Shown: piece by piece, positions 2,146 to 32,767 of the stretch
Layout of the letters: each line of letters starts with the position of its first letter
Position numbering within the stretch: position 1 is the first letter of the stretch
Source: Draconibacterium mangrovi
GTDB lineage: Bacteria; Bacteroidota; Bacteroidia; Bacteroidales; Prolixibacteraceae
Length of the DNA: 64,000 nucleotides
Direction: 5' to 3'
NCBI RefSeq assembly: GCF_010586825.1
Contig: NZ_JAAAGB010000002.1
Location: forward strand, 186,001 to 250,000
Position numbers and translations under genes: made by a program
The notes under the pieces: model-generated
What the model saw: the letters and a program-made list of their open reading frames with translations, nothing else
Told to the model about the DNA's origin: nothing
Database searches by the model: none

Positions 2146-4848
2146 CTATTTTAAATTAGCTTGTGCAGCAGCTACTCGTGCAATTGGTACACGGTATGGA
2201 GAACAACTTACGTAGTCCATTCCAACACTGTCGCAGAACATCACTGACGAAGGTTCGCCACCATGCTCGCCACAAATACCAACTTTTAAATTCGGTTTTG
2301 TGCTGCGGCCTTTCTCAACACCAATTTTTACCACTTGACCAACACCTTCCTGGTCGAGTACCTGGAAAGGATCGTTCTTCAGAATACCTTTTTCTATATA
2401 AATAGGTAAGAATTTACCTGCATCGTCACGCGAGTAACCAAAGGTCATCTGTGTAAGGTCGTTTGTTCCGAACGAGAAGAACTCGGCATGCTCAGCTACT
2501 AAATCAGCGGTCATTGCAGCACGTGGAATTTCAATCATTGTTCCTACCATATAATCACATTTTGCACCTTTTTCAGCAAATACTTTTTCCGCAGTTGCGT
2601 TGATGATGTCTGCCTGTAATTTAAATTCTTTTACCGTACCAATAAGCGGAACCATAATCTCAGGACGAGCATCAACGCCTTTTTGCTTCAGGTTAACTGC
2701 AGCTTCTATAATGGCGCGTGCCTGCATTTCAGTAATTTCAGGATAAGTATTTCCCAAACGACATCCACGGTGGCCCAACATTGGGTTGAATTCGTGAAGA
2801 TCTTCAACCAGTGCTTTTACCTCTTCTACAGAAATGCCCATTTCGTCGGCCATCTCTTTTTGGTTGGCTTCTTCGTGTGGAACGAATTCGTGCAATGGCG
2901 GATCAAGCAAGCGAATGGTTACTCCGTAACCTGCCATAGCTTCCAAAATTCCCTCGAAATCTTCACGCTGGTAGGGTAATAATTTATCTAATGCTTTACG
3001 ACGATCAACCTCGGTTTTAGCCAAAATCATTTCGCGCATAGCTTTAATTCTTTCTCCTTCGAAGAACATGTGCTCTGTACGGCAAAGACCAATTCCCTGC
3101 GCTCCAAAGTCGCGTGCAACTTTTGCGTCGGCAGGAGAGTCGGCATTGGTACGAACTGTCATACGAGAGAATTTGTCGGCCAGATCCATAATTTTTGCGA
3201 AGTTACCGCTCAATTCCGGATCCATAGTCGCAACTTTACCATCATAAACCTCACCGGTTGATCCGTTTAACGAGATCCAGTCGCCTTCCTGAAATTCTTT
3301 TCCGTCGATGGTCATAATGCGGGTTTTGTAATTGATTTTTACATTACCTGCACCCGATACACAACATTTACCCATACCACGTGCTACTACTGCAGCGTGC
3401 GATGTCATACCTCCGCGGGCAGTTAAAATACCTTTGGCAATGTGCATACCTTCCAAATCTTCCGGCGATGTTTCAACACGTACCAAAACTGCTTCAGGAT
3501 ATTTGCTGGCTTCGTCGGCAAAGAAAACAACCTGTCCGGTTGCTGCACCTGGCGATGCCGGCAATCCTTTTGCCAATACATTTGCCGTTTTCATTGCTTC
3601 GGTGTCGAAAACAGGGTGAAGTAATTCATCCAGTTTGGCAGCGTCAATTCTTTTCAAAGCTGTTTTTTCGTCGATACGACCTTCTTCCAACATATCAACA
3701 GCAATATTTACCATTGCCGCACCTGTACGTTTTCCGTTACGGGTTTGCAGCAGCCACAATTTACCTTCCTGAATGGTAAATTCAAGATCCTGCATATCGC
3801 TGTAATGGTCCTCAAGCTTTTGCTGAGTTTCGTTCAACTGCCTGTACATTTCAGGCATCGCTTCTTCCAGTGAAGGATATTTTGAGGCTCTCTCTTCTTC
3901 GCTAACTCCCTGAAGAGCAGCCCATCTTTTTGACCCTTCGATTGTGATTTCCTGTGGAGTACGAATACCTGCAACAACGTCTTCACCTTGTGCGTCGATC
4001 AAATATTCGCCATTGAAGATGTCTTCTCCTGTAGCTGCGTCGCGGGTAAATGCAACACCTGTACCTGAATTCGATCCCATATTTCCGAATACCATGGCCT
4101 GGCAGTTTACAGCCGTTCCCCACTCATCAGGGATTTGCTCCAAACGACGGTACAAAATTGCACGGTCGTTGTTCCAGCTGTTAAATACGGCTGCAACAGA
4201 ACCCCAAAGTTGCTCCCATGGATCGGTTGGGAAATCTTTTCCGGTAACTTTTTTAACGGCAGCTTTAAAACGCTTAACCAGTTCCTGTAAGTCTTCAGTA
4301 GTGAATTGCGTATCTAATGCAATACCTTTTTCTTCTTTTAACTGATCTATAATCTCTTCAAAAGGATCATGCTCTTCTTTGCTGGCAGGTTTCATTTCCA
4401 TTACCACATCGCCATACATTTGTACAAAACGACGGTATGAGTCCCAGGCAAATCGGGAATTCCCCGATTTTTTAGCAATACCTTCAACGGCATCGTCGTT
4501 CATCCCCAGGTTCAGAACGGTGTCCATCATTCCGGGCATTGATGCACGTGCACCCGATCTTACCGACATCAAGCATGGATTTTCTTTGCTTCCAAATTCT
4601 GTTCCAGTTAATTTCTCAACCAGTGCCACTGCGGCTTCAACTTCTGGCTTTATCAGGTCGAACGTTGCTTGCTGACCTTTTTCATTGTACATGGTACAAA
4701 CTTCTGTTGTAATTGTAAATCCGGGAGGTACAGGTACTCCAATAAGGTTCATCTCTGCAAGGTTGGCACCTTTACCTCCTAGAAGGTTTTTCATGTCTGC
4801 TTTACCTTCTGCCTGTCCGGCTCCGAAAGTATATACATGTTTTGTCAT
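2146..4848 (-). CDS. ppdK: Pyruvate, phosphate dikinase
   Basis: 900 residues, the usual full length. The order is ATP-grasp nucleotide-binding domain (N-terminal, GGKGANLAEM near residue 25), phosphohistidine domain with the swivelling His near residue 484 in GGMTSHAAVVARGMG, and a C-terminal PEP/pyruvate barrel ending with the catalytic Cys region KVGICGEHGGEPSS (near 859). The family interconverts ATP, phosphate and pyruvate with AMP, PPi and PEP in the cytosol. In anaerobic Bacteroidota it can run glycolytically or gluconeogenically. The gene is monocistronic, with its own terminator. A membrane pyrophosphatase at 25.97 kb could consume or supply its PPi, which is an inference from gene content. 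Confidence 0.97.
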   Translation of the reverse strand: MTKHVYTFGAGQAEGKADMKNLLGGKGANLAEMNLIGVPVPPGFTITTEVCTMYNEKGQQATFDLIKPEVEAAVALVEKLTGTEFGSKENPCLMSVRSGARASMPGMMDTVLNLGMNDDAVEGIAKKSGNSRFAWDSYRRFVQMYGDVVMEMKPASKEEHDPFEEIIDQLKEEKGIALDTQFTTEDLQELVKRFKAAVKKVTGKDFPTDPWEQLWGSVAAVFNSWNNDRAILYRRLEQIPDEWGTAVNCQAMVFGNMGSNSGTGVAFTRDAATGEDIFNGEYLIDAQGEDVVAGIRTPQEITIEGSKRWAALQGVSEEERASKYPSLEEAMPEMYRQLNETQQKLEDHYSDMQDLEFTIQEGKLWLLQTRNGKRTGAAMVNIAVDMLEEGRIDEKTALKRIDAAKLDELLHPVFDTEAMKTANVLAKGLPASPGAATGQVVFFADEASKYPEAVLVRVETSPEDLEGMHIAKGILTARGGMTSHAAVVARGMGKCCVSGAGNVKINYKTRIMTIDGKEFQEGDWISLNGSTGEVYDGKVATMDPELSGNFAKIMDLADKFSRMTVRTNADSPADAKVARDFGAQGIGLCRTEHMFFEGERIKAMREMILAKTEVDRRKALDKLLPYQREDFEGILEAMAGYGVTIRLLDPPLHEFVPHEEANQKEMADEMGISVEEVKALVEDLHEFNPMLGHRGCRLGNTYPEITEMQARAIIEAAVNLKQKGVDARPEIMVPLIGTVKEFKLQADIINATAEKVFAEKGAKCDYMVGTMIEIPRAAMTADLVAEHAEFFSFGTNDLTQMTFGYSRDDAGKFLPIYIEKGILKNDPFQVLDQEGVGQVVKIGVEKGRSTKPNLKVGICGEHGGEPSSVMFCDSVGMDYVSCSPYRVPIARVAAAQANLK

Positions 4849-19805: not shown

Positions 19806-20389
19806 CGTTTACTTTTGTGTGTTGCCGTACCACTCGGGGCGTATAACCCAACTTCTTGCGAAAGTCTTGTATTTAAGTGCGTATTCAACGGCTTTTGGTT
19901 TTTAGTGCATTAAATATAATTGTTTTTTCGGTAATAGTTTAAAAACCCGTTTGGTGGCTTAAACAAAAGTTTAAAGCAAAAAACAATTCTGAGGCTTAAA
20001 CTTTTGTATAAACGCTGGTGGAGCTCCGGTGAGCGCTTAAACGTTTGTTTAATGGCTTCCGGTCTTCCTTTTGGAGCTTAAACGTAAGTTTAAAAGGCGT
20101 CGGGCGTTCCTTTCAAGGCTTAAACGTTAGTTTAAACCTCGTCGGGTGTTCCTTTTGGGCTTTAAACTTTAGTTTAAGGGTAGAAAGTTAATTCCGGGGG
20201 CTTAAAACTTATCGGCAAGCGGCAAAAATTGTTTCATATGTTCAATAACATCCGGGTAAAGGTTTGATATTTAGTTCTTGTTGCCGTAAATTGCTAATGC
20301 TAATTGCCCGGGTAACTCAAAAAATCATTTTAATTAATCCCTTTGCAAGCAGCCCAAATAATACAATTACTAATGTAAAATCTAAAACC
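19806..20389. other. Long intergenic region holding the palindromic array
   Basis: 584 bases without a gene. The middle (19935-20216) is the tandem palindromic array annotated separately. The remainder, including 20217-20389 just ahead of DUF6261, shows no clear promoter box or hairpin. Confidence 0.5.
19935..20216. repeat. Seven-unit palindromic array, about 41-bp period
   Basis: The half-site GCTTAAAC (or GCTTTAAAC) starts at 19957, 19994, 20035, 20076, 20118, 20159 and 20200: spacings 37, 41, 41, 42, 41, 41. In the first six it is followed after 4 AT-rich bases by GTTTAA, making dyads TTAAAC-N4-GTTTAA (the second is imperfect, GTATAA). The seventh has only the left half, and a right half alone lies at 19935. 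Linkers also resemble each other (GGCGTCGGGCGTTCCTTT and close variants), so whole units were duplicated. The array ends 174 bases before DUF6261. It could be cooperative protein-binding sites or a transcribed string of hairpins. Confidence 0.9.
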
Positions 20390-21103
20390 ATGATCGAAAA
20401 AATTATTGTTAACAGCCGGACAACCGAAATTCACGGAACCACACGTTTACTTATTAACGCTTTCGTGCAATCGACATTAACCGCCGACCGAACGCTTATG
20501 CCGATGTTTACCGCTATAACGGAGCAAAACAATGCCCTTGGCGATGCCATCGACCGCTCGAAAGCACAAAGTATACTTGCCGACAAGGATGATATCCGTG
20601 ATGCTGCCGACCGGGCAGTGGGGTACCTGATTAAAGGTTACACCTATTACCCCGACGAAACGATTCGTAATGCAGCACTGTTAGTAGAAGCCGTATTTGA
20701 TAAATATGGATTTTCCGTAATCGACGAAAGTTATGTAACCGAGTCGTCGCACCTGGTATCGATGCTGGGCGACCTGGCTGCTCCCAATGTTCAGGCGGCC
20801 ATTGCACTGCTGCCGGGAGTAGCCGAAAATGTTGCCACGCTGCAGGCTGCACAAACCGGTTTCGAGGACACACAAACCCAATATGCCGAAGAGCTGGCCG
20901 AGGAAGACAGCCAGCTAAATGCCTCTACTTTGAAAAAACAAGTAGCTGCCCTGATTAACAACGACCTGGTGGTATTTTTACGATCGGCCCAGCGTTTTCA
21001 GGCCGAAACCTATGGTGCATTTACCGCTACCATTGCTAAACTTATTGCCGACAATAACGACGCTGTCCGCAAACGCTGGAGTAAAGATGATTCGGAGGAT
21101 TAA
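20390..21103 (+). CDS. DUF6261 family protein, 3' end probably altered by an insertion
   Basis: 237 residues from ATG 20390; the upstream in-frame extension to 20264 is not protein-like. It is mostly helical and Ala/Asp/Glu-rich: MIEKIIVNSRTTEIHG, NNALGDAIDRSKAQS, and ends KRWSKDDSED. No signal peptide or membrane helix. I believe it is a DUF6261 protein, a Bacteroidota family of unknown role. Its last bases GTAAAGATGATTCG (21081-21094) recur at 21785-21798 and there continue in frame as KDDSKEEENVC-stop, suggesting that the original 3' end lies beyond the DUF559 element. The palindromic array lies just upstream. Confidence 0.75.
   Translation: MIEKIIVNSRTTEIHGTTRLLINAFVQSTLTADRTLMPMFTAITEQNNALGDAIDRSKAQSILADKDDIRDAADRAVGYLIKGYTYYPDETIRNAALLVEAVFDKYGFSVIDESYVTESSHLVSMLGDLAAPNVQAAIALLPGVAENVATLQAAQTGFEDTQTQYAEELAEEDSQLNASTLKKQVAALINNDLVVFLRSAQRFQAETYGAFTATIAKLIADNNDAVRKRWSKDDSED
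21081..21094 (+). repeat. 14-bp direct repeat, left copy
   Basis: GTAAAGATGATTCG at the end of DUF6261, identical to 21785-21798. Together they bracket the DUF559 unit, as a target duplication would. Confidence 0.8.
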
Positions 21104-21106
21104 CCG

Positions 21107-21241
21107 ACTCACCCTGATCGAAACAAGACGCAAAGAGGGAAAGAACGTTGAAGTTGGTTGGCTTAAATTAATTGGATAGGTGCTTTGAAAATCCGGCTGG
21201 TCGTCCCTCTTTTTGCAAAAGAGAGGGAGACGAGGGTGAGT
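21107..21241. mobile_element. TIR-ended repeat element, copy 1
   Basis: 135 bp beginning ACTCACCCT and ending AGGGTGAGT, which are perfect inverted ends. Inside, CCCTCT...AGAGGG around TTTTTGCAAAA makes a hairpin (21204-21226). About 108 bp of it (21132-21239) is nearly identical to 21675-21783. No coding capacity. Confidence 0.75.
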
Positions 21242-21255
21242 AAAAAAGGAATATA

Positions 21256-21639
21256 ATGAGCGATGATCATACTCCGATAAGTAGAGCGAGGAAACTGCGT
21301 CAGAGAATGACTGAAGAAGAAAGAATCCTTTGGCAGCAACTCCGAAACAGAAAGTTCCTCGGATTAAAGTTTTTACGGCAACATGCGATAATTTATGACC
21401 GCATAAACTATAAACCAAAATACTTTATCCCCGATTTTTATTGTGATGAAAAAAAGTTGATAATCGAGATTGATGGCAAGATTCACTACTTTCAAAAGCA
21501 AAGAGATCAGGATCGGGAAGATATACTACACGACCTTGGTCTTCATATGTTAAGAATAAAAAACGAAGAGGTTAACTCTGATATTATTGGGGTTCTGCAT
21601 AAAATAAAGCAATTTATCCAGCGACTGGACTCACCCTGA
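21256..21639 (+). CDS. DUF559 (Vsr-like PD-(D/E)xK) endonuclease-domain protein
   Basis: 127 residues. The start is like the family (SRARKLRQRMTEEERILWQQLRNR, family hallmark in outline), then FLGLKFLRQHAI, FIPDFYCDEKKLIIEIDGKIHY and ENVN-like LRIKNEEVNS. The core D-F-Y-C...E-I-D-G fits the PD-(D/E)xK nuclease fold shared with Vsr mismatch endonuclease. The gene starts 14 bases after repeat element 1, and its last codons and TGA stop are formed by the ACTCACCCTGA end of repeat element 2. Function in vivo is unknown; linkage to the repeats suggests a role in their spread. Confidence 0.88.
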   Translation: MSDDHTPISRARKLRQRMTEEERILWQQLRNRKFLGLKFLRQHAIIYDRINYKPKYFIPDFYCDEKKLIIEIDGKIHYFQKQRDQDREDILHDLGLHMLRIKNEEVNSDIIGVLHKIKQFIQRLDSP

Positions 21640-21786
21640 TCGAAACAGGTTTCGATCTGTCCCTCTCTGCTGTCGCAAAGAGGGAAGAAGCGTTGAAGCA
21701 GGTTGGCTTAAATTAATTGGATAGGTGCTTTGAAAATCCGGCTGGTCGTCCCTCTTTTTGCAAAAGAGAGGGAGACGAGGGTGTGT
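21629..21786. mobile_element. TIR-ended repeat element, copy 2
   Basis: Starts ACTCACCCT and ends AGGGTGTGT (one change from a perfect inverted end). It has an internal TCGAAACAGGTTTCGA hairpin at the left that copy 1 lacks, and shares the right-hand 108 bp with copy 1. Its right end runs directly into the second 14-bp direct repeat. Confidence 0.75.
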
Positions 21787-21826
21787 AAAGATGATTCGAA
21801 AGAGGAAGAAAATGTTTGTTAGGTTT
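21785..21826 (+). pseudogene. Displaced 3' end of DUF6261
   Basis: GTAAAGATGATTCG repeats the end of the DUF6261 gene and then continues as AAAGAGGAAGAAAATGTTTGTTAG-type coding for KEEENVC-stop. Joining it to RKRWS of the intact part gives a smooth C-terminus of RKRWSKDDSKEEENVC. This supports insertion of 21095-21784 into the last codons of DUF6261. Confidence 0.55.
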
Positions 21827-22026
21827 GACATAATTAGAAAGGGGATGTTGCCATGTGCACATTCCTTTTTTTTTGTCGTTTTACCGCGATTAACATTCAC
21901 TTAACCCTACAGCAAGTCGCATAAACTTTTTAGTGCTTAAAAATAGTTCTCAGATGCCCTGATAACAGGCACTTTCGGTTTATTTGTCTTGTGTTTTTGT
22001 ATAAAAATGAATAAAAATATTTCATC

Positions 22027-22042
22027 CCGTTAACGTTAACGG
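22027..22042. promoter_or_regulatory. 16-bp perfect palindromic operator ahead of uxaB
   Basis: CCGTTAACGTTAACGG reads the same on both strands. It lies just upstream of the -7 box and covers the -33 region, as expected for a repressor site, perhaps of a LacI-type regulator. The regulator is not in the window. Confidence 0.75.
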
Positions 22043-22057
22043 AAAACATTTAAAACT

Positions 22058-22065
22058 TATATTTG
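22058..22065 (+). promoter_or_regulatory. uxaB promoter -7 box
   Basis: TATATTTG, exact TAnnTTTG, 16 bases after the operator palindrome. Confidence 0.7.
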
Positions 22066-22130
22066 CCCGCTCAAAACAATAAATAGAGTACTAATTACAC
22101 CTGTAAAATAAGGTTATAGATTTTTTGATG

Positions 22131-23651
22131 ATGAAGAAATTAAATCGCACCAACGCAACTGAAACAAATAGTTACCCAACACGCATTCTTCAATTTGGTG
22201 AAGGAAATTTTTTACGTGCTTTTACCGACTGGATCGTTGATAAAATGAACAAAGAGATCGGTTTTAACGCCGGTGTTGATGTGGTTCAGCCGCTGCCAAA
22301 CGGTATGGTTGACATGCTAAACGACCAGGACGGGCTTTACCACGTTTACCTGAAAGGGATTAAAAACGGGACGCCAGTAACCGAATTTTCGCTGATTGAC
22401 TGTATCAATAAAGGCATAAATCCATACAACGAATTTGAGTCGTACAAAGCAAGTATTCTGAATCCCGATCTTCGTTTTGTGTTTTCGAATACTACCGAAG
22501 CCGGTATCAGCTGGGAAGAAAGCGACACATTGGATATGGTGCCTCAGGCATCGTTTCCTGCAAAAGTGGCCACCATGTTGTACATGCGCTACAAAGAGTT
22601 TGATGGCGACAAATCAAAAGGTCTGATCTTTTTTGCCTGCGAGCTGATCGACCGTAACGGCGATATCCTTAAGAAATTCGTTTTGCAACATGCCGAGAAA
22701 TGGAACCTTGGCGACGATTTTATCAGATGGGTGAACGAAGCTTGTTGTTTCTGCAGCACGCTGGTTGACCGTATTGTTCCTGGCTTTCCACGCGATGAGA
22801 TAAAAGAAATTCAGGAGGAGCTGGGTTACGAAGATAACCTGGTTGTTGTGGGCGAATATTTCCACCTGTGGGTGATTGAAGCGCCGGAGTGGGTGCAGGA
22901 TGAGTTTCCTGCTGAAAAAGCCGGTTTGGAAGTGAAGTTCGTAAAAGATATGAAACGTTTCCGCGAGCAAAAAGTGCAGGTGCTGAACGGTTGCCATACC
23001 GGAAGTTATGCGGTGTCGTACCTGAGCGGAATTGAAACTGTTCGTGATGCCTACGAAAACCTTGAGGTGGGTAGTTTTATGAAAGAACTGGTTTACGACG
23101 AGGTGTTGACGGTTCTGGATGGAACAGAAAAGGAACTGAAGAAATTTGCCAACAAAATTCTGGAGCGTTTTGCCAATCCGTTTATTCGTCACCAGTGGCA
23201 AAGTATTGCCTTAAATGCCATGTCGAAATGGGAAACCCGTAACCTGCCATCGCTGATTAACTTCGAGCAGAAACACGGTATGTTGCCACAAAAGCTGGTG
23301 TTCTCGCTGGCTGCCATGATCGCGTATTTTAAAGGTGAAGCAAATGGAGAAGCGTACAATGTTCAGGATGATGAGTGGATCGTTGATTTCTATAAAGAAG
23401 CCTGGGCTGAATGCGATGGCCGTCCGATTTCGATTTACAACCTGTGCGAAAAGGTATTAAGCCTTGATAAAGTTTGGAAACAAAACCTGAATGATATTCC
23501 AAACCTCACGATTACCGTTAGTCACTACTTGTTCCTGATTACACAGGTGGGCATGAAAAAAGCGGTAAAAGCGGTGCTTAGCGAAGACAATCCGCTGATG
23601 CAGATTACCATTGATAAGATGAACAAAACAGAAGAAACAGTTACAGCATAA
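22131..23651 (+). CDS. uxaB: Tagaturonate reductase (altronate oxidoreductase)
   Basis: 506 residues from ATG 22131; an adjacent ATG at 22128 and TTG at 22125 are alternatives, and MKKLNRT fits the family start best. Mannitol-dehydrogenase superfamily: NAD-binding ILQFGEGNFLRAFTDW near 18-33, and the catalytic region QVLNGCHTGSYAVSYLSG with the helix motif KVQ-LNG-H. It reduces D-tagaturonate to D-altronate in the galacturonate (pectin) route, cytosolic. Seven bases from uxaA, so one operon, probably under the palindromic operator upstream. Related fructuronate reductases act on mannonate, but the uxaA neighbour favours altronate. Confidence 0.92.
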   Translation: MKKLNRTNATETNSYPTRILQFGEGNFLRAFTDWIVDKMNKEIGFNAGVDVVQPLPNGMVDMLNDQDGLYHVYLKGIKNGTPVTEFSLIDCINKGINPYNEFESYKASILNPDLRFVFSNTTEAGISWEESDTLDMVPQASFPAKVATMLYMRYKEFDGDKSKGLIFFACELIDRNGDILKKFVLQHAEKWNLGDDFIRWVNEACCFCSTLVDRIVPGFPRDEIKEIQEELGYEDNLVVVGEYFHLWVIEAPEWVQDEFPAEKAGLEVKFVKDMKRFREQKVQVLNGCHTGSYAVSYLSGIETVRDAYENLEVGSFMKELVYDEVLTVLDGTEKELKKFANKILERFANPFIRHQWQSIALNAMSKWETRNLPSLINFEQKHGMLPQKLVFSLAAMIAYFKGEANGEAYNVQDDEWIVDFYKEAWAECDGRPISIYNLCEKVLSLDKVWKQNLNDIPNLTITVSHYLFLITQVGMKKAVKAVLSEDNPLMQITIDKMNKTEETVTA

Positions 23652-32539: not shown

Positions 32540-32587
32540 AAAAGAAAAGAGCCGTTCTGAAATTTACAGAACGGCTCTTTTCTTTTC
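32540..32587 (+). terminator. Terminator of the M16 peptidase gene
   Basis: 20-bp perfect stem (32540-32559 with 32567-32586), 7-base loop, T-rich 3' arm. Confidence 0.9.
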
Positions 32588-32635
32588 TGAAAGTCAAGTG
32601 AAAATTAATAGCAAAATATGCTTAAAAATTTATTG

Positions 32636-32703
32636 ACTCACCCTGATTGTGTCGTAGGCACAATCGTCCCTCTCTTCGCGAAGAGAGGGAGCGAGGGAGA
32701 GTT
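32636..32703. mobile_element. Solo TIR-ended repeat element (no nuclease gene)
   Basis: Begins ACTCACCCTGAT like the two elements at 21.1 and 21.6 kb and ends AGGGAGAGT. It contains two hairpins: GATTGTG / CACAATC (32645-32665) and a perfect 22-bp palindrome at 32668-32689 with CCCTCT...AGAGGG arms. Lies between convergent genes. Confidence 0.65.
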
Positions 32704-32767
32704 TGTTGAATATTGTTTAACTTTCATTCCTGTTGATGATTCCCGGGAATCGAATGTTTTATTCTTT

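Follow-up and report, generated by a model that had tools for sequence, protein, structure and literature searches.

Rickettsia palindromic elements (RPE) are palindromes that lie in frame within protein-coding genes, and we know of no nuclease partner for them. By description they are like the DUF559 inserts reported here, which are also in-frame palindromes in coding genes. RPE are mentioned in PMC3733652 and PMC2229807, and in the first of these CGTC REPs appear to be without a transposase. In REPtrons (RAYT plus REP), short palindromic repeats surround one nuclease gene and nuclease-free copies are dispersed, both features being shared by the elements studied here. DUF559 elements differ from REPtrons in their enzyme, which is of the PD-(D/E)XK/EDxHD type and not a HuH tyrosine transposase, in a triplex-type mirror strand, and in allelic in-frame insertions in essential genes. 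The EDxHD homing endonuclease I-Bth0305I is similar to DUF559 in nuclease fold and sequence profile, and homing elements, like DUF559 elements, insert beside conserved motifs and have alleles of full, reduced and empty form at a single site. Unlike homing elements, those with DUF559 have hairpin repeat borders and many dispersed nuclease-free copies; unlike the intron- or intein-borne kind, they show no self-splicing intron in Rfam and no intein domain in the Pfam results, neither of which is required of free-standing genes.

The repeats that accompany DUF559 resemble, in sequence, the intrastrand triplex motif (TM, earlier BoxC or PIT), which consists of a polypyrimidine stem (Y-stem), a polypurine stem (R-stem) and a mirror third strand, the triplex itself being putative for the repeats described here. 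According to PMC4666352, TM occurs in more than 260 genomes, its formation of a triplex has been studied for the E. coli motif, and in E. coli its repeats are associated with instability. The authors report no mobility gene near the motif in E. coli and the word 'endonuclease' is absent from the text of that paper, whereas the repeats described here are paired with DUF559.

The locus lies in a window of 64,000 nucleotides, the whole stretch of DNA that was analysed, where a block made of one hairpin element, a DUF559 gene and a second hairpin element is found directly behind a DUF6261 gene. Its features are:

20264-21103, + strand: host-side DUF6261 ORF, whose 3' end is the insertion target
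21081-21094, + strand: left direct repeat, target-derived (3' end of the DUF6261 gene), GTAAAGATGATTCG
21107-21241, + strand: hairpin element copy 1, 135 bp, ACTCACCCT...AGGGTGAGT
21204-21228: hairpin within copy 1, TCCCTCT..AGAGGGA, then a mirror third strand with 0 mismatches, A/T being tolerated
21256-21639, + strand: DUF559 nuclease gene, 127 aa, PF04480 E=1.5e-28
21629-21786, + strand: hairpin element copy 2, 158 bp, right end AGGGTGTGT
21660-21685 and 21749-21773: hairpins within copy 2
21785-21798, + strand: right direct repeat, target-derived, GTAAAGATGATTCG

Coordinates and the PF04480 match agree with the initial annotation in placing a DUF559 gene between two hairpin element copies (135 and 158 bp), with its ATG 14 bases 3' of copy 1. 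The 14-bp GTAAAGATGATTCG that had been proposed to border the whole block is exact at both borders, 17 of 19 bases being identical when it is extended, and it corresponds to the native 3' terminus of DUF6261, the gene upstream. The inverted ends stood in part: copy 1 has ACTCACCCT...AGGGTGAGT, but the end of copy 2, AGGGTGTGT, has one mismatch. The stop codon of the nuclease, attributed at first to the end of copy 2, is in fact supplied by its start (ACTCACCCTGA). This arrangement recurs elsewhere: alignment A1 has 14 proteins, 9 of which end in SP before a stop, coded by CTCACCCTGA of the repeat or a variant of it, and the repeat contains the nuclease stop codon in several lineages that range from Bacteroidota to E. 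coli. We conclude that the block probably represents a single insertion by a mobile-element family that is widespread and combines a small, single-domain EDxHD/Vsr-like DUF559 nuclease with flanking hairpin repeats of the BoxC/PIT/TM type. Copy 1 of the window folds poorly as DNA (z -1.35), which counts against this reading.

The DUF559 protein of the window was predicted by AlphaFold with a pLDDT of 88 and a pTM of 0.81, and its best matches among solved structures (Foldseek) were 3hrl (NGO0050) and the catalytic domain of I-Bth0305I, 3r3p, the latter with a profile E=8e-7 and a Foldseek probability of 1.00. The domain is thus modelled as a PD-(D/E)XK / EDxHD Vsr-like catalytic fold. Residues invariant among 26 proteins include D60, E71, D73, R87 and R100, with a putative catalytic role, and H77 is present in at least 90%. 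On the window protein, Pfam found DUF559 and, weakly, the related MTES_1575, with no HuH/Y1 domain, so the enzyme class does differ from that of RAYT, as initially annotated. No DDE transposase was found, the scanned sense-strand ORF of the block matching DUF559 only. A defence gene was rejected on weak and partial PADLOC matches of the window protein (mREase_II E=6e-5, DpdF E=1e-4), and an intron or intein on 0 Rfam matches in 8 sources and no intein family in the Pfam results of 9 + 7 proteins.

Positions 20384-22500 of the window were compared with 61 genomes (the window's own and 60 relatives), and the empty sites that the initial annotation had proposed to look for are present. The element is missing from the window site in two relatives, G012 and G024 (the latter with other repeats farther downstream), and, within the genome of the window itself (G000), from the end of a DUF6261 paralog. 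A third relative, G002, carries a DUF559 gene and four repeat copies at this site, with GTAAAGATGATTCGGAGGG at the left flank, between the repeat copies and at the right flank, and an outer duplication, GAGTAAAGATGATTCGGAGGGxTAAT, of 26 bases with one mismatch. The insertion is therefore polymorphic, and the empty sites, together with GTAAAGATGATTCGGAGGG flanking and separating the copies of G002, argue that the 14-bp direct repeat is a duplicated target flank.

Growth into arrays with target sequence between the copies makes the proposed composite of two copies too narrow. Because of the arrays, integron-like cassettes and CRISPR-like arrays were considered as candidate readings. Arrays hold one or two DUF559 genes and reach about a dozen repeat copies by eye, as in G034, which has two DUF559 genes and a truncated last copy; more are found in G017, G027 and G031, and G012 has one away from the window locus, with linkers that resemble remnants of an internally deleted nuclease gene. 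The reverse strand of L069 has two ORFs, at around 450-1220 and at around 2600-3420, whose products appear to be secreted; they stand cassette-like among the repeat units of an array.

The window also holds the nuclease-free relative that had been noted at 32.6 kb, and it belongs to a dispersed family:

32580-32763, + strand: nuclease-free dispersed unit of ~180 bp, within the T-run of an intrinsic terminator
32636-32702: core three-way-junction element of this unit

A pattern for this core has 12 copies in the window's genome and occurs in 23 of 37 genomes of the genus set, against 0 copies and 0/37 genomes for the reversed pattern. The unit is absent from the same place in G002, G024 and G008, and its target duplication is ambiguous within the T-run. 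In DNA folding, the 32.6-kb core of the window and three short cores adopt a three-way junction (z -4.7 to -11.1). Hairpin 1 covaries over 54 distinct 37-base halves, with a score of 0.236 versus 0.100 when shuffled (0/500 as high) and 45 cells changed on both sides versus 13.3; two of the five covariation measures, pairs with both-side changes and pair types, are not above shuffled, which counts against our main reading. Two results on the pattern do not fit a single mechanism and also count against this reading: the exact E (core) pattern is missing from 11 of 33 DUF559-bearing genomes of the genus set, and G036 has the pattern and no DUF559. The bare word ACTCACCCT was rejected as evidence, being weak alone (33 sites versus 21 for the word read backwards). 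At the sites read, the ~180-bp unit lies behind or in a terminator-like T-run (window 32580-32763, L007, L008, L022, L025 and L032).

DUF559 is also found inside host enzymes. Pfam places it within LeuRS (3 proteins), MetH (5 proteins) and class I tRNA synthetases, of which IleRS was named by NCBIfam and ValRS by sequence. Pfam also finds it in DNA-methylase genes and, terminally, in a PurL-like protein, and three more hosts were judged HsdR-like by eye. Among the loci fetched from the phylum search, 16 of 30 lie in open frames of at least 350 aa. Complete in-frame DUF559 domains stand beside conserved motifs in IleRS (L212, L213, L218, L224), ValRS (L207, L208, L215, L219, L220), LeuRS (L297, L300, L321) and MetH (L304, L306, L312, L314, L322), and no splicing domain was seen in the DUF559-bearing housekeeping enzymes. 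Restriction-modification or methylase genes (HsdR-like, type ISP/IIG-like, PglX-like, DUF1156) are a recurrent class of host, with DUF559 inside or beside them in L302, L305, L310, L293, L298, L170 and L157-L159.

Cognate empty alleles exist at the same site in relatives for both IleRS and ValRS. Of 30 IleRS loci, 27 were readable at the site: 17 are empty and have a brief segment, WKENFKD(V) for example; 5 bear the nuclease; and 5 are intermediate, among them the hairpin-coded NPHLLSPERGGAS and NGSLLNSLPLKENRGGAS, with others degenerate. Parsing of the ValRS site succeeded for 12 of 30 loci, of which 4 are full, 2 are hairpin-only and 6 are empty; G022 is a further full case, as is G029 with a broken frame, and hairpin-only inserts also occupy another site in ValRS. 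In-frame empty, hairpin-only and nuclease-bearing alleles thus coexist. The frame of G029 valS (L273 1093-2886) is broken at G runs inside repeats, either by sequencing error or really.

On the IleRS host tree the full state requires 4 changes, at least 3 of them forced by well-supported branches. Its patchiness does not differ from random placement (142/500 shuffles as low), which counts against our main reading, and could come from an old insertion followed by many losses. In a tree of 165 nuclease domains, built on few columns (120), each of the four host sites occupies one branch, with support of 99 for IleRS, 77 for MetH, 65 for LeuRS and 31 for ValRS, and all site labels together require 8 changes versus 26.6 when shuffled. 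The weak support of the groups beyond IleRS (31-77) also counts against this reading. Target duplication, a trait of DDE IS/MITE elements, is present at the window locus and in G002; at the IleRS and ValRS sites host codons are replaced and, unlike at the window locus, no target duplication was seen, so one mechanism may not fit both.

We favour a homing-like mechanism, that is a break followed by repair copying, with occasional ectopic insertion, because of the kinship of the enzyme and the allelic states. The nuclease would cut or nick the empty target, the hairpin ends or both, and break repair by the host would copy the element in. With an allelic target the result would be homing-like, an ectopic insertion would occasionally follow, and loss of the nuclease would leave the hairpin alone. 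As the repeats allow in-frame read-through, coding sequence would tolerate the element, apparently without splicing. Cleavage and mobility by the DUF559 nuclease are here inferred. As to the composite mobile unit of the initial annotation, in which the nuclease spreads the repeats, its association and empty sites are borne out, and the nuclease as the spreader is a suggestion that we retain.

The main rival is a hairpin-directed single-strand mechanism of the REPIN/RAYT kind, in which the nuclease would recognise a single-stranded hairpin at the replication fork, excise or copy the repeat and insert it elsewhere, homing-like alleles being secondary. The many dispersed nuclease-free copies that fold as three-way junctions would suit such a mechanism, as would the abutting of nuclease and repeats, with a stop codon often provided by the repeat, and the target duplication at the window locus. 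We nevertheless regard it as unlikely, since the protein has no HuH/Y1 domain (Pfam gives DUF559 and the weak MTES_1575 match) and both the same-site alleles of IleRS and ValRS and the site-specific nuclease groups would be unexpected under free transposition. The REP/RAYT-like logic suggested at first is therefore half the picture: the IleRS/ValRS alleles, the EDxHD fold and the site-specific groups look more like homing.

The pairing of DUF559 with hairpin repeats is general across phyla. In four sets that overlap slightly, and with a hairpin definition set after seeing examples, a hairpin or a flank-shared repeat is present at 148 of 152 DUF559 loci versus 17 of 240 control ORFs, the controls being drawn from the named-genome loci alone and loci with less than 200 bp of flank being left out (80 to 77, 30 to 28). 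By set, the same definition gives 28/28 for the phylum, 26/29 for the genus, 18/18 for plasmids and 76/77 for the named genomes, these last being the best 80 of 288 relatives retrieved with a profile of 14 nucleases. Four loci (L138, L204, L211 and L222) have neither hairpin nor shared repeat and count against our main reading. Sequence of at least 30 bits common to the 400 bp upstream and downstream was found at 59 of 75 usable loci versus 8 of 189 control ORFs from the same loci as the nucleases, so that related repeats border DUF559 genes much more commonly than they border control ORFs, which answers a question that the initial annotation had set. A polypyrimidine-stem hairpin occurs in either flank at 70/76 loci (controls, 12/223) and in both at 51/76 (controls, 0/223). 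With narrower versions of the test, 14 of 17 loci on plasmids and 13 of 19 small ORFs in the genus set were positive. The flanks of 19 loci were read directly, including Kryptonia, Ignavibacteria, Cloacimonadota, Magasanikbacteria, Brocadia and Fodinibius. The plasmid set was found by nuclease sequence alone (35 records, 18 fetched), and some of its DUF559 genes interrupt suf, pnt, paa and hpa clusters. Across the phylum, 395 genomes were sampled and 222 of them have DUF559.

These counts bear on a second alternative, that the hairpins are recombination or break hotspots and the DUF559 genes passengers, captured there or using the repeats for expression or termination, with some other mover. 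Such a reading accords with the instability to which TM repeats are tied in E. coli in PMC4666352 and with repeat copies outnumbering DUF559 genes in several genomes, that of the window included; it is quite improbable, however, as hairpins lie in both flanks of 102/152 DUF559 loci versus 0/240 control ORFs, over many phyla, and the nuclease stop is inside the repeat in lineages from Bacteroidota to E. coli. Last, Caulobacter VsrA carries DUF559, the SOS response without the methylase ScmA depends on VsrA, and its authors propose very-short-patch (VSP) repair in PMC12907096, but that DUF559 proteins are host repair enzymes of this kind and the repeats incidental is very improbable in view of their patchy presence, their insertion inside essential enzymes, the interrupted suf, pnt, paa and hpa clusters and the repeats at nearly every DUF559 locus examined. 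The roles in VSP repair and as a mobile element are compatible.

Returning to the mobile-element reading, the same pairing turns up in bacteria that differ greatly and extends even into essential genes; the nuclease may therefore be the spreader of a common repeat whose origin was unexplained. Among the matches listed, which were open-access titles and abstract openings that mostly leave subscription papers uncovered, no earlier description of the pairing was present, and nothing on DUF559 with a tRNA synthetase was found in the open-access literature. We would give about even chances to the broader proposal that DUF559 proteins are the missing mobility enzymes of BoxC/PIT/TM repeats and of hairpin-coded in-frame inserts, and that with these they make up a new class of mobile element, which enters essential genes in frame and free of splicing and whose hairpin scars remain in many bacterial phyla, E. 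coli with its ycjD and TM repeats included. One enzyme family with such repeats next to nearly all of its genes examined would explain their spread, as well as the hairpin-coded inserts in essential proteins, and a nuclease-driven element would be open to study in E. coli through one gene, ycjD.

The likeness to the published motif was assessed on the hairpins themselves. In the window, the mirror third strand has 0 mismatches in three of four hairpins and 3 mismatches in the fourth; over the four sets it is present in 261 of 382 hairpins versus 182.5 expected with permuted strands, a modest excess. The strict E. coli TM form was found at only 8 of the DUF559 loci scanned. In E. coli, ycjD (L326 1783-2136), annotated as DUF559, lies between sapF and fabI, its stop codon falls within a repeat-like (BoxC/TM-like) stretch, and in strain AML002_ev02 a strict TM match lies downstream of the gene at a distance of about 170 bases. 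At least 80% of the sapF-ycjD-TM stretch is held in 3361 of 5426 E. coli genomes. Strains lacking ycjD were rejected as clean empty sites: the three that were read have two efflux genes after sapF, so they are replacements. A link to the CGTC-tagged REP (dRS3 type) found no support, ATTCCC N8 GGGAAT having 0 matches in the 2121-base Neisseria locus L323, and both flanks of this locus carry TM-like hairpins.
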